NCBI RefSeq assembly: GCF_023093535.1
Contig: NZ_CP095757.1
Location: 2,356,001 to 2,420,000 of the forward strand
Length of the DNA: 64,000 nucleotides
Origin: Halovivax limisalsi
GTDB lineage: Archaea; Halobacteriota; Halobacteria; Halobacteriales; Natrialbaceae
Reading direction: 5' to 3'
Of this stretch, positions 36,520-62,805 are shown piece by piece. Position 1 is the stretch's first letter. Each line of letters opens with the position of its first letter. A program made the position numbers and the translations under genes. The notes beneath the pieces were generated by a model. It saw only the letters and a list, made by a program, of their open reading frames with translations. It did no database searches and was not told the DNA's origin.

Positions 36520-36521
36520 CT

Positions 36522-36635
36522 TTTGCCGCGAACATTTCGTGAGCGGCAAATGGGTCCGGAGTTGAACCCAGGAAGTCCCAGCGCCGAACGGAGTGAGGCG
36601 ACCGTCTACCTTCGGTTCGAATCCGCCCCAACCCA
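36522..36635 (+). repeat. tRNA-Val tail cassette: hairpin, antisense and sense 3'-end copies
   Basis: Three bases after the tRNA an 8-bp hairpin (TTTGCCGC 36522-36529, GCGGCAAA 36543-36550) encloses loop GAACATTTCGTGA. Next comes TGGGTCCGGAGTTGAACCCA (36551-36570), the reverse complement of a shortened copy of the tRNA's own T-arm and acceptor end. A small hairpin CGCC/GGCG (36582-36600) with loop GAACGGAGTGA follows. At 36613-36635 lies a sense copy of the tRNA 3' end (CGGTTCGAATCCGCCCCAAC, then CCA). No coding frame is believable. Confidence 0.8.
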
Positions 36636-58422: not shown

Positions 58423-58468
58423 ATCGGACCGACAACGCTTTTTGCCGGGAGGGAAAACCGACGGTCGC

Positions 58469-58550
58469 GGTGGGGTGGCAGAGCGGCCCATTGCGCCTGC
58501 CTTGAAAGCAGGTGGCGTCAGCCTCATGGGTTCAAATCCCATCCCCACCG
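58469..58550 (+). tRNA. tRNA-Ser (anticodon TGA)
   Basis: Acceptor arms GGTGGGG (58469-58475) and CCCCACC (58543-58549) pair fully, discriminator G at 58550 as expected for Ser. Anticodon stem CCTGC/GCAGG with loop CTTGAAA gives anticodon TGA. A long variable arm (GGCGTCAGCC region) and T-arm ATGGGTTCAAATCCCAT complete a class II tRNA. CCA is not encoded. Confidence 0.96.
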
Positions 58551-58814
58551 TTGCTGTCGCGAACAATTCGTGAGCGACTGCGAGGTGCGGTGGGTTTGAA
58601 GTAGACCAGTCGCAGCTCGCGCAGCGACCGAAGGGAGCGAGCAAGACCGTCTGGGCGTGGTTCAAATCCCATCCCCACCGCTTCTGCGACGAACGGACGT
58701 GAGGAGCGAAGCGGACACGGTGGGATTTGAATTATACCGAGGTTCTGTGAGCGGAGCGATCAGGTTCTCGGGAGTAGTTCAAATCCCATCCCCACCGCTT
58801 CTGCGACGAACGGA
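58551..58814 (+). repeat. Two tandem tRNA-Ser tail cassettes
   Basis: Unit 1 (58551-58680): hairpin GTCGC/GCGAC at 58556-58578 with loop GAACAATTCGTGA, antisense piece CGGTGGGTTTGAA (58588-58600), spacer, then a 22-base exact copy of the tRNA 3' end at 58659-58680. Unit 2 (58681-58797): CTTCTGCGACGAACGGACG, antisense piece CGGTGGGATTTGAA (58718-58731), spacer, exact 21-base copy at 58777-58797. The 38 bases at 58660-58697 recur exactly at 58777-58814. The antisense pieces are reverse complements of the tRNA 3' end lacking about six internal bases. Nothing here is coding. Confidence 0.85.
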
Positions 58815-58941
58815 CTGCAGCGTGAAACCGATCGATTGGCGCGTAACCGCGCAGTACAATTCATCTTCCTGTGGAATGCACGTCCCGCCAACCGCCGGTT
58901 TAGAAACCACAAGCTATAGGTGTGAGTGTCGCAAACCTAGG

Positions 58942-58963: not shown

Positions 58964-58989
58964 ATTCGACAACAGCTATGATACGTGAT

Positions 58990-60054
58990 ATGGCCGACGA
59001 AGGGTCGGTTTCGCGGCGGAACACGCTACGGCTCAGCGGTGCGGCGATGCTTGCGGGACTGGCGGGATGCACTGCGCTGCCGAGCGCACCCGGGCGAGCA
59101 GAGAGCGACGGAAACGGCGGCGATCCGGTTGCTGTGGCCTCGTTCTTCAGCTTCTTCGACTTCGGCCGGAAGATCGCCGACGGGACGCCGCTGACGGTGC
59201 GCAACCTCGTCCCGACGGGCCTCCACGGCCACGGCTGGGAGCCAAACGCCAGTATCATCCAGGACATCACCGAGGCGGACGCCTTCATCCACGTCGGAGA
59301 AGACTTCCAGCCCTGGGCCGACCGCGCCATCCAGACGATCACCGGCGACGGCATCGAGACGGCACTCATCAACGTCAGGGAGGGAATCGAACTAGAGGAC
59401 CTCGCTGCGTCACTCGACCGCGAGGAGGAGGGCGTCGGCGCCGAGCGAGGGAAGGATCCGCACTTCTGGCTGGATCCGCTTCGCGCGATGCGGTCCGTCG
59501 ACAACATCGCCGAGGGGTTCGTCGAAATAGCCCCCGAATACGCCGACGCGTTTCGCGAGAACGCCGAGACGTACAAATCCGAGGTCCTCGAACGTATCCA
59601 CGCGGAGTATCGGGCCATCTTCGACCGGGCGCAGCGCGACATCGTCCAGCTGGCCGCGCACAACGCCTTCCAGTACATCGGCGTCCGATACGGCGTGCAG
59701 ATGCGGCCGCTCGTGACGAACCTGGCGGCGAGCGGCGACGTCAAGCCCGCGGACATCCGCGAAGCGGAACGGGTTATCCGCGAGAACGACATCCGGTACA
59801 TCGCGAACGGCGTCTTCGAGTCCCAACGACCGGCTCAGCAGCTCGTCCGCGAGACGGCCGTGGACGCGTACTTCCCCGTGACGCCGTACGCCGGCGTTCG
59901 CGAGGAGTGGGTCGAGGAGAACTGGGGCTACGAGGAGATCGCGTACAACATCAACATGCCCACGTTCGAGATCGTCCTCGGCAACGAGACGCCAGAGGAC
60001 GCGGCTCCGTCGGAGGGCTGGGTCGAACAGTGGCGCAACTTCGAACCGATATGA
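58990..60054 (+). CDS. znuA: Zinc/manganese ABC transporter substrate-binding lipoprotein
   Basis: A 354-residue cluster A-I solute-binding protein. The N-terminus has a Tat lipoprotein signal (SRRNTLRLSGAAMLAGLAGC), with Cys as lipid anchor. Metal-binding His residues are expected in LHGHGWEPN (about 75-83), DPHFWLDPLRAM (about 155-166) and QLAAHNAFQYIG (about 217-228), plus an Asp/Glu late in the chain. It delivers Zn2+ or Mn2+ to the ZnuBC transporter. ATG 58990 is favoured because it fits the TATA box; ATG 58978 would add four residues. It overlaps the ATPase gene by four bases (ATGA). Confidence 0.92.
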   Translation: MADEGSVSRRNTLRLSGAAMLAGLAGCTALPSAPGRAESDGNGGDPVAVASFFSFFDFGRKIADGTPLTVRNLVPTGLHGHGWEPNASIIQDITEADAFIHVGEDFQPWADRAIQTITGDGIETALINVREGIELEDLAASLDREEEGVGAERGKDPHFWLDPLRAMRSVDNIAEGFVEIAPEYADAFRENAETYKSEVLERIHAEYRAIFDRAQRDIVQLAAHNAFQYIGVRYGVQMRPLVTNLAASGDVKPADIREAERVIRENDIRYIANGVFESQRPAQQLVRETAVDAYFPVTPYAGVREEWVEENWGYEEIAYNINMPTFEIVLGNETPEDAAPSEGWVEQWRNFEPI

Positions 60055-60959
60055 GCACACAGGACACCGATTCCGCGACGGCGGGTGGCACAGACGAGCG
60101 GCCGGCAACCGAGACGGACGCCACGACGAACGAACCGGTCATCGACCTCGCGGACGTCACGTTCGGCTACACGGCGACGCCCGTCGTCGAGGACGTCTCG
60201 CTGACCATCGATCCGGGTGAGTACGTCGCCATCGTGGGGCCGAACGGTTCGGGGAAGTCGACACTGATGCAGCTGATGCTCGGCCTGCTCGAGCCCGATA
60301 CGGGCAGGGCTCGCCTGTTCGACGAACGTGCCGACCGGTTCGACGACGGCGAGCGGATCGGCCACGTCGCCCAGCAGGCCAGCGCCGCGAAAGCGATGCC
60401 CATCACCGTCCGCGAGGTGGTGAAGATGGGTCGGTTCGCCCACGTCGGATTCGATCGACTGATCGACGAAGACCAGACGCTCGTCGACGCAGTGCGCGAG
60501 GACCCGCTCGGGACCTCCAGCGGCGCCCTCGATGCCGTCTTCGGACGACTTTCCGCGTCGGACTGGGCGATCGTCGACGACGCACTCGCGACCGTCGGGA
60601 TGAGTGCGTTCGCCGACCGGCGCGTCACGCAGCTCTCGGGTGGGCAACGCCAGCGCGCGTTCATCGCGCGGGCGCTGGCGAGCGAGGCCGACCTGCTCGT
60701 GCTGGACGAGCCGACCGTGGGGGTCGACGCCGAATCGGTCGACGCCTTCTACGACCTGCTTGCGGCGCTCAACGCCGATGGCATCACCGTCGTCCTCATC
60801 GAGCACGACCTCGGGGCGGTCGTCGAGCACGCCGACCGCGTCGTCTGTCTGAACCGCGAGATCTATTTCGACGGACCGACCGACGAGTTCGTGGAGAGCG
60901 ACGCGCTGGCCCGGGCGTTCGGGACGGAGGCGCGATTTCTCACGGGGGTGGGCGGATGA
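60051..60959 (+). CDS. znuC: Metal ABC transporter ATP-binding protein
   Basis: A 302-residue ABC ATPase. After an acidic, Thr-rich leader of about 28 residues come Walker A GPNGSGKST (about 63-71), signature LSGGQRQRAFIARAL (about 197-211), Walker B LLVLDEPTVGVD (about 218-229) and the switch His in LIEHDLG. An unusual insert of about 35 residues between Q loop and signature (DRLIDEDQTLVDAVREDPLG ...) is longer than in bacterial ZnuC. It starts inside the znuA stop and overlaps the permease start, so the three genes form one operon. Confidence 0.94.
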   Translation: MSTQDTDSATAGGTDERPATETDATTNEPVIDLADVTFGYTATPVVEDVSLTIDPGEYVAIVGPNGSGKSTLMQLMLGLLEPDTGRARLFDERADRFDDGERIGHVAQQASAAKAMPITVREVVKMGRFAHVGFDRLIDEDQTLVDAVREDPLGTSSGALDAVFGRLSASDWAIVDDALATVGMSAFADRRVTQLSGGQRQRAFIARALASEADLLVLDEPTVGVDAESVDAFYDLLAALNADGITVVLIEHDLGAVVEHADRVVCLNREIYFDGPTDEFVESDALARAFGTEARFLTGVGG

Positions 60960-62041
60960 GCGTGGGTCCGGCAGTCGTCCTCGCGGGAGGCGGGATCACC
61001 TCGGTGGACCCGTCGCTGCTCCTCTCGCTACTGGGCGGTCTCGGCGCAATCGGCGACTTCGTCTTCGAGTTTCTCATGTGGGTCCTGGCGCAGTGGTACT
61101 GGCTGATGGACTGGGTGTACTACGTCACGGGCCTGGAGATGCTGAACCCGCGCTACCGGTTCATGCACCGGGCGATACTCGTCGGGCTCTGCGTCGGCGT
61201 GATGGCCCCGCTCATCGGGACGTTCCTCGTCCACCGACAGCTCGCGCTCATCGGCGACGCGCTCGCACACACCGCGTTCGCGGGGGTGGCCGTCGGCCTG
61301 TTCCTGAACGCCGTCCTCGACCTCGGGGTCTCGCCGTATCTCACCGCCGTCGTCGTGGCGATGATCGCCGCGCTATTCATCGAACTCATCTCCGAGGTCA
61401 CGGACGCCTACAACGACGTCTCGATGGCCATCGTTCTCTCGACGGGATTCGCGCTGGGGACGACGCTCATCAGCCTCAACGCGGGCGGGCTCGCCGTCGG
61501 CGTCAACCAGTTTCTCTTCGGGAACCTGTCGACGGTCTCGCCTCAGAGCGCCGCGATCCTCCTGGTGCTGTTTGCCGTCATCGTCGGGACCGTGGCCCTG
61601 ACACGCAACCAGCTCCTGTACGTTACGTTCGACGAAACGGCAGCCGCAGTCTCCGGCATCCCCGTCAACTGGTACAATCGGGTGATGGTCGTGTTGACGG
61701 CGATGGTCGTCGTCGGAGCGATGCAGATCATGGGCGTCATCCTCGTCGCGGCGATGCTCGTCGTTCCGGTCGCGGGTGCGACGCAGGTGTCCCGAAGTTT
61801 CTCCGAGTCGCTCGTTCTCTCGGTCGTACTCGCCGAACTGGCGGTGTTGCTGGGCATCGGCGTCGCCTTCTACGGCGGCGTCACGGCCGGCGGCGTCATC
61901 GTCCTCGTGGCCGTCGGAATCTACATCTGCGCCGTCGGGCTGGGCAAAGTGCAGTCCGCCCGCGGTGAACAGGTCACGCCCAGCATGGGTAGCATCGAGA
62001 CCGAGAGCGCGGATGCGAGCGCGGGACGGGGTGACGACTGA
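60956..62041 (+). CDS. znuB: Metal ABC transporter permease
   Basis: A 361-residue ABC-3 family permease with eight or nine transmembrane helices. Family marks: MAPLIGTFLVHRQLALIGDA and LAHTAFAGVAVGL near 85-115, GVNQFLFGNLSTVS near 181, and MQIMGVILVAAMLVVPVAGA near 261. An N-terminal extension of about 60 residues before the first conserved helix is hydrophobic (FVFEFLMWVLAQWYWLMDWV). It overlaps znuC by four bases and shares one base with the regulator gene. Confidence 0.92.
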   Translation: MSVGPAVVLAGGGITSVDPSLLLSLLGGLGAIGDFVFEFLMWVLAQWYWLMDWVYYVTGLEMLNPRYRFMHRAILVGLCVGVMAPLIGTFLVHRQLALIGDALAHTAFAGVAVGLFLNAVLDLGVSPYLTAVVVAMIAALFIELISEVTDAYNDVSMAIVLSTGFALGTTLISLNAGGLAVGVNQFLFGNLSTVSPQSAAILLVLFAVIVGTVALTRNQLLYVTFDETAAAVSGIPVNWYNRVMVVLTAMVVVGAMQIMGVILVAAMLVVPVAGATQVSRSFSESLVLSVVLAELAVLLGIGVAFYGGVTAGGVIVLVAVGIYICAVGLGKVQSARGEQVTPSMGSIETESADASAGRGDD

Positions 62042-62805
62042 TGGTCGCAGCCAGCGATGGCGACTCGCCGGACGGCGACCCCGCCAGAAACGACGGGGAA
62101 CGCAAGTCGGACGAATCGACACGAATGCTGAGCGCGGTCATGGAGGACTATATCAAGGCGATCTACGTCCACGAGGAGGACGGCGACGGACGGGTATCGA
62201 CCTCGGCCCTCGCCGACGACCTCGAGGTCACCGCGCCGACCGTCTCCGCCACGCTGAAAACGCTCGAAGAGCGGGATCTCATCGACCGCAAGGAGTACAA
62301 AGGGGTGACGCTCACCGAGGAGGGCGAACTCGTCGCCCTCGAGGTCCTCCGACACCACCGCATCCTCGAGACATTTTTGACCGAACGGTTCGATTACGAC
62401 TGGGCCGACGTCCACCGCGAGGCCGACAGACTCGAACACTACGTGTCCGAGGAACTGACCGACCGCATCGCCGAAACGCTGGGAAACCCGCCGGTCGATC
62501 CCCACGGCGACCCGATCCCCGACGCCGACCTGTCCGTTCCCGAAGGGCGTGAAACCATCCGCCTCGCTGAGGCCGAGGAGGACGAACACGTGACCGTCCA
62601 CCGAATCCACGACCAGGACGACGCGGACCTTCGATACCTCGCCGATGTCGGCATTCGTCCGGCGGTCGAACTCGCGGTCGTCCGCGTCGCGCCGTTCGGG
62701 ATGATAACCGTCGAGACGCCGGCGGGTGAGCAGAGCCTCCCGACGGAGATCGCCCGGTTGATCGAAGTCGTGCCGGCGGCCGCCGCGGACGGAACCGAGA
62801 CGTAA
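62041..62805 (+). CDS. DtxR/MntR-family metal-dependent regulator
   Basis: A 254-residue regulator. A polar leader (about 1-28) precedes the winged helix (about 30-95, MEDYIKAIYVHEEDGDGRVS, DDLEVTAPTVSATLKTLEER). The dimerisation/metal domain (about 96-165) contains HHRILETFLTERFDYDWADV and EADRLEHYVSEEL, with the usual metal-ligand pattern His/Glu/Asp. A C-terminal FeoA/SH3-like domain (about 175-245) has ADVGIRPAVELAVVRVAPFG. It is the last gene of the znuACB operon and probably represses it when metal is plentiful, via the palindrome at the promoter. Confidence 0.92.
   Translation: MVAASDGDSPDGDPARNDGERKSDESTRMLSAVMEDYIKAIYVHEEDGDGRVSTSALADDLEVTAPTVSATLKTLEERDLIDRKEYKGVTLTEEGELVALEVLRHHRILETFLTERFDYDWADVHREADRLEHYVSEELTDRIAETLGNPPVDPHGDPIPDADLSVPEGRETIRLAEAEEDEHVTVHRIHDQDDADLRYLADVGIRPAVELAVVRVAPFGMITVETPAGEQSLPTEIARLIEVVPAAAADGTET

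Follow-up and report, generated by a model that had tools for sequence, protein, structure and literature searches.

Hairpin cassettes with sense and antisense copies of the host tRNA 3' end form tandem arrays behind tRNA genes of Halobacteriales

Tandem cassettes that combine two hairpins with a sense and an antisense copy of the 3' end of their host tRNA were found directly behind tRNA-Ser(TGA) in the stretch of Halovivax limisalsi DNA analysed here (64,000 nucleotides, referred to as the window), and arrays on the same plan recur behind many other tRNA genes of this species and its relatives. The Ser locus may well be one array of a haloarchaeal (Halobacteriales) family of tRNA-anchored DNA cassettes in which recombination between the tail copies drives the turnover, a reading on which our judgement is evenly poised. 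Most likely, the cassettes are a non-autonomous, selfish or domesticated family of mobile elements that is mobile or was formerly so. Each cassette consists of hairpin A, an antisense of host tRNA positions 54-64, hairpin B, and a copy of host tRNA positions 54-73, and the units follow one another directly 3' of the tRNA. In the proposed scheme, the cassettes would act as DNA and not through an RNA product, and would be excised, duplicated, and reinserted via recombination between tail copies, the tRNA's own 3' end included. Since such an exchange could turn a cassette tail into the working end of the tRNA, selection on the tRNA would keep all tails correct. Candidates for the recombinase are host homologous recombination or a tyrosine recombinase.

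Two arrays in the window

The features of the array behind tRNA-Ser(TGA) are as follows:

58468-58550, + strand: tRNA-Ser(TGA) gene, host of the array (ARAGORN, 58468-58551; Rfam RF00005, 58469-58550)
58551-58580, + strand: cassette 1 hairpin A, a stem with a GCGAAC...GTGAGC apex; the same module class occurs behind other tRNAs
58587-58600, + strand: cassette 1 antisense of the tRNA-Ser 3' end, GCGGTGGGTTTGAA, without 7 internal bases
58601-58660, + strand: cassette 1 hairpin B, of the class CCAGTCGCAGC...GACCGTCTGG, which is common to many tRNAs in named haloarchaea
58661-58680, + strand: cassette 1 sense copy, exact, of tRNA-Ser 54-73
58681-58711, + strand: cassette 2 hairpin A
58718-58731, + strand: cassette 2 antisense of the tRNA-Ser 3' end, CGGTGGGATTTGAA, without 6 internal bases
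58732-58777, + strand: cassette 2 hairpin B, of the class ACCGAGGTTCTG...CAGGTTCTCGG
58778-58797, + strand: cassette 2 sense copy, exact, of tRNA-Ser 54-73
58798-58815, + strand: truncated third hairpin A at the array end, the first 18 bases of the cassette 2 module (part of the 39-bp direct repeat)

The tail of tRNA-Ser(TGA), i.e., tRNA positions 54-73, reads TTCAAATCCCATCCCCACCG and lies at 58531-58550. As the tRNA ends at 58550, the first cassette starts at 58551, and the two cassettes span 58551-58680 (130 bp) and 58681-58797 (117 bp), both in the order hairpin A, tRNA 3'-end antisense, hairpin B, exact copy of tRNA 54-73. An earlier note, made from the sequence of the locus, had claimed that one plan is repeated twice behind this tRNA and that the sense copies are exact, and the sequence bears out both claims: the 21-mer composed of a G and the Ser tail occurs three times in the window and not once in 100 shuffles. 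The antisense of cassette 1 joins the T-loop antisense GTTTGAA to a complement of the acceptor end. The direct repeat that the same note took for tandem growth is real as well, and so is the growth, though the repeat measures 39 bp (58660-58698 and 58777-58815) rather than 38. It stops inside the truncated hairpin A, and the distal end of the array is therefore a broken third cassette. Further 3' of the array, at 58978-62805, open reading frames (ORFs) were seen by eye to resemble a metal ABC transporter (binding protein, ATPase, and permease) and a DtxR-like regulator.

The window contains a second array, behind tRNA-Val(CAC):

36521-36635, + strand: tRNA-Val(CAC) array, with hairpin A at 36521-36550, antisense at 36558-36566, then hairpin B, and sense copy at 36616-36635

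Its antisense, GGAGTTGAA, is the exact complement of the unusual TTCAACTCC of its own tRNA.

Occurrence in the genome and in the order

Four genomes were surveyed tRNA by tRNA, namely, the own genome (G000; 41 tRNA genes), one of the same genus (G003; 40), one of the same family (G024; 46), and one of another family (G058; 43), and a tRNA was scored as positive if at least one copy of its own 3' end occurred within 800 nt downstream. Copies of the own tail were found behind 21/41, 21/40, 31/46, and 22/43 tRNAs, respectively, and, under a looser edit criterion, behind 20/29 tRNAs of a fifth genome (G004). The regions upstream of the tRNAs gave 0, 0, 1, and 0 positives (1/170 in total), and the tails of other tRNAs fitted in 5/1408, 2/1370, 3/1760, and 8/1536 trials (18/6074 in total), i.e., in 0.1-1% of trials. 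The median unit length is 123 bp, and 127 of 138 units carry the T-loop antisense, compared with 3 of 138 in a reversed control. In all, six Halobacteriales genomes besides the own one were read tRNA by tRNA, and each has arrays behind 10 to 31 tRNAs.

The range among archaea was assessed with the pattern GATTTGAAN{20,50}TTCAAATC, which is present in 53/60 genomes of the order Halobacteriales versus 16/236 other genomes of the phylum, the reversed control being zero in all. Named matches include Halorubrum, Haloarcula, Natrinema, Natronorubrum, Halorhabdus, Halopiger, and Actinarchaeum halophilum. One genome of the order that is negative for the pattern has tail copies at 10/30 tRNAs, some of them outside full cassettes, and another Halobacteriales genome has them at 16/30 tRNAs, with up to 6 copies; in an outgroup genome, tail copies were found at 0/26 tRNAs. 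In a contig-wide scan, the haloarchaeal matches lay mostly behind tRNAs or had T-loop ends, with a Halorussus-type group standing apart, and there were many chance matches in bacteria. A search with the Ser region matched 61/61 genomes, many of these matches being the tRNA itself and others running into the trailer or lying elsewhere. That the arrays are chance repeats has a negligible probability, since nothing was counted in favour of this explanation and every control speaks against it; the shuffled, reversed, and other-tRNA controls exclude chance or low complexity as the source.

Match of both strands to the host tRNA

For tRNAs whose tail is not identical in all species, the copies on both strands could be compared with their own tRNA and with that of the other species; as the units share descent, the cases counted are not independent events. 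At species-differing bases, the sense copies match the own tRNA in 494 cases, that of the other species in 15, and neither in 9. The antisense at positions 54-60 is complementary to the own tRNA in 108 cases versus 7 for the other, and at positions 61-64 in 73 versus 21 (neither, 40), whereas at positions 65-73 the counts (85 versus 73) do not discriminate own from other. The antisense thus tracks its host up to position 64 and not beyond, which indicates that the real antisense covers approximately positions 54-64 and that the longer match with missing bases is specific to Ser. Among 168 units, one per tRNA and genome, complementarity to the own host at positions 62, 63, and 64 exceeded that in all 5000 shuffles, and the antisense/host pair at position 57 was A:T in 126, G:C in 38, and mismatched in 4. 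A complement to tRNA positions 70-73 is weakly enriched genome-wide, and the 6-base gap is therefore no general feature. Of the proposal that the antisense lacks about six internal bases, the gaps of 7 and 6 bases at Ser stand, but they do not extend to the genome as a whole, where the antisense is reliable only at about 54-64. The same proposal had held that the antisense pieces would be chance if relatives had none; relatives do have them, and there too they track their own tRNA.

Turnover of cassettes

Arrays were compared between species, and the counts are not independent because the modules share descent. Among 63 arrays with at least two copies, the last copy has diverged further than the one nearest to the tRNA in 32, the opposite holding in 6 (p=2.6e-6), with a mean of 0.59 edits for the nearest and 1.92 for the last. 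A comparison of G003 with G004 shows that one of the two tRNA-Glu arrays has exactly one whole cassette more, at its tRNA-proximal end; the difference concerns a distal cassette at Lys-ctt and the second cassette at Gly-gcc, and at Ser-tga, Ser-cga, Val-cac, and Lys-ttt the cassettes stand in swapped order. In 16 cassette pairs, which were chosen by their A match and hence favour similar A modules, hairpin A, antisense, and tail show 92-94% similarity, and hairpin B shows 73%, with numerous gaps. For 15/169 units, a B module with a similarity of at least 90% exists at another tRNA within the genome; for A modules, the count is 0/169. Since B is shared between tRNA loci and has diverged in otherwise matched cassettes, it appears that B travels and that the local antisense and tail stay.

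Tail copies of the Lys, Thr, Phe, Val, and other arrays have an extra T-loop base (TTCACAATC for TTCAAATC) that their host tRNA lacks. This insertion is specific to certain tRNA loci and common across species (G000, G003, G004, and G058; L133, L157, L169, and L182). As the host tRNA does not contain this base, existing cassettes are a likelier source of new ones at these loci than the tRNA itself.

Among the three roles suggested in the earlier note, a non-autonomous mobile element with tRNA-mimicking ends comes closest to the data, given that whole cassettes are gained and lost, that modules are exchanged, and that the arrays have a polarity. Another of these roles, a ladder of attachment sites, is possible. 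The reordering and whole-unit changes could also be produced by homologous recombination alone, which weighs against mobility of the cassettes. It is conceivable, if rather unlikely, that the arrays are passive relics of an old repeat that was captured once per tRNA and has since been kept alike solely by gene conversion and unequal crossing-over in polyploid haloarchaea, with neither mobility nor function. Homologous recombination could indeed give rise to concerted evolution with the tRNA, permuted order, truncated end modules, and A modules bound to their locus. On their own, however, passive relics do not explain why a short inverted antisense tracks its host (108 to 7), why many tRNAs have the same B classes, with near-identical modules at different loci, or how the plan has been retained throughout the order at between one and two thirds of the tRNAs.

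The hairpin B core CAGTCGCAGC...GACCGTCTG was also observed without a tRNA or T-loop ends in Halorussus and other haloarchaea, in the context ..CTCGG[B]CCGG.. (L077, L080, L103, L115, L124, L151, L168, L176, L183, and L186), and these cores are possibly a dispersed palindrome family from which B originates. At L323 (G024) and L289 (G058), tRNA-Asp genes occur in tandem and are separated by arrays or by a 1.5-kb gap; whole tRNA genes may have been duplicated along with their arrays.

Integrated elements and genes within arrays

Haloarchaeal integrases use tRNA 3' ends (reviewed in PMC8371274), and such an integration was found in the own genome at tRNA-Tyr (G000:C1:3288692), where no cassette lies directly behind the tRNA. 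A 17.4-kb integrated element (L393:75-17500) comes first, followed by an attachment site with a partial tail and then by a four-copy Tyr array. The element encodes an integrase at its right end (Phage_int_SAM_1, PF02899 above cut-off; phrog_1) and two large proteins that match PHROGs of unknown function. A similar arrangement exists at tRNA-Pro, the array being displaced downstream of the tRNA by 17.5 kb (Tyr) and 5.0 kb (Pro).

Both observations, integrase use of tRNA ends and the Tyr element, could suggest that the arrays are attachment-site scars of integrated viruses or plasmids, yet this origin is very improbable. Integrations make no hairpin A, antisense, or hairpin B, and they push the existing array away; those at Tyr and Pro left just one copy of the tail, with some mismatches and adjoining an integrase gene, and such scars are thereby refuted as the source of the cassette pattern. 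A single tail repeat bounding an integrase element, as expected of a scar, is what the Tyr element has and the arrays do not. Neither viral contigs nor phage records yielded a cassette unit, the pattern matches in viral contigs all being chance matches without T-loop context, and among plasmids the pattern occurred only in two stretches of haloarchaeal megaplasmids without an annotated feature. The earlier note was thus right in holding that the array is no ordinary integration scar. It had also reasoned that full elements bounded by these copies in related strains would speak for a scar; elements do exist at these tRNAs, where they displace the array and do not create it.

A role of the arrays as decoys for integrases was considered separately and found no support, as the integrations at Tyr and Pro used the tRNA end itself and not an array copy.

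Protein-coding genes occur within the tRNA-Phe array. In the own genome (L371:739-2139), an ATPase_2/DUF234 gene has two cassettes on one side and, on the other, an exact Phe tail with two more cassettes behind it. In the sister species G003 (L372:698-1511), a Fic/DOC-family gene (PF02661) and a small overlapping ORF precede a degraded tail.

RNA or DNA

Among 193 distinct A modules, the hairpin A stems contain 13 G-T and 13 A-C single mismatches besides 1742 Watson-Crick pairs, versus 35 G-T and 0 A-C in the tRNA T-stems of the same genomes. With G-T as frequent as A-C, the evolution of hairpin A is unlike that of an RNA helix. When folded with RNA energies, 177/230 units are more stable on the tRNA-sense strand, as tRNA genes are, and the tandem G-A motif of hairpin A lies on the tRNA-sense strand in 142 versus 5 cases. 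These two strand biases also fit RNA and so count against the cassettes acting as DNA; common ancestry or single-stranded DNA would give the same biases.

An RNA function has a minor probability in our estimate. Here, a structured trailer made by read-through would regulate or buffer tRNA 3' processing (RNase Z, CCA addition) or serve as a decoy, with the antisense pairing to the upstream or downstream tail. The host-specific complementarity of antisense and tail is consistent with this, as are the strong predicted fold of tRNA-Ser with its array (z -5.0), the tRNA-like strand asymmetry of folding, and the conserved sense-strand G-A motif. It is opposed by the missing wobble preference in hairpin A, by the third to two thirds of tRNAs that have no array, and by the two tRNAs from whose promoter the array is separated by many kb, an integrated element lying in between. 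Moreover, tails with the extra T-loop base are for that reason no mimics of tRNA ends, and at the arrays no Rfam family besides tRNA was matched. An RNA decoy, also suggested in the earlier note, accordingly finds no support in hairpin A, in which G-U mismatches are just as rare as A-C mismatches, and the sense/antisense part could still take such a role.

Comparison with known systems

The rtT repeats of the E. coli tyrT locus, which form an Rfam family, follow a tRNA gene in tandem, and every repeat includes a copy of the 3' end of that tRNA. The haloarchaeal arrays have this feature in common with them, but rtT concerns one tRNA locus, and the arrays concern between one and two thirds of all tRNA genes in an order. 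To our knowledge, neither a host-matched antisense nor a two-hairpin plan exists in rtT, and the arrays showed no homology to rtT or to any other Rfam family besides tRNA.

REP/BIME sequences are clustered, dispersed, extragenic short palindromes with internal mismatches that are mobilised by the RAYT transposase. Clustering, short palindromes, and internal mismatches are common to both; the arrays differ in being fixed in place and orientation behind tRNA genes and in having ends that copy the neighbouring tRNA. Archaeal integrase attachment sites in tRNA genes, e.g., that of SNJ2 (PMC8371274), likewise use the tRNA 3' end and have direct copies of it, but they consist of one direct copy far downstream plus an integrase, in contrast to the arrays, which have sense and antisense copies in tandem, contain hairpins, and have no integrase.

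Resemblance is also found with the attC cassette arrays of integrons, in which tandem units with imperfect hairpins have a polarity from a fixed anchor and are gained, lost, or reordered as whole units. The outer boxes of attC are RYYYAAC and GTTRRRY. The unit ends of the arrays, GTTCAAA or GTTCGAA and their reverse complements, deviate from this consensus on inspection by eye, having a C at the fourth base. The anchor here is a tRNA gene, the repeat ends match that tRNA, and the units are mostly without genes. With a median of 123 bp, units are too short for a typical gene and are therefore not gene cassettes, the ATPase and Fic genes at tRNA-Phe being exceptions. Among ORFs of at least 80 aa around the tRNA-Ser array, no integron integrase was recognised by eye. 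Integron attC cassette arrays have been reported in Archaea (PMC9668308), and a term search of that paper gave no mention of haloarchaea or tRNA. It is possible, but we consider it doubtful, that a dedicated integron-like recombination system captures and shuffles hairpin cassettes at haloarchaeal tRNAs, with T-arm and acceptor as the core, ends re-specified to the local tRNA, and occasional genes (Fic-family, ATPase).

None of these systems (rtT, integrons, REP/BIME, and attachment sites) is known to combine host-matched sense and antisense copies in one plan. No earlier description of such arrays was found in the open-access full text searched, and a prior report elsewhere is possible.

Implications

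The arrays are an order-wide feature beside a large share of the tRNA genes in a well-studied group of archaea, for which no description was found in the open-access text searched. They track the sequence of each tRNA on both strands and constitute a natural record of recombination at tRNA genes. For genome annotation, it follows that arrays can be the origin of partial tRNA copies and of antisense-tRNA ORFs in the vicinity of tRNAs. The arrays may also help to explain how tRNA ends stay intact under attack by integrases, and they could reveal a new recombination or RNA system.
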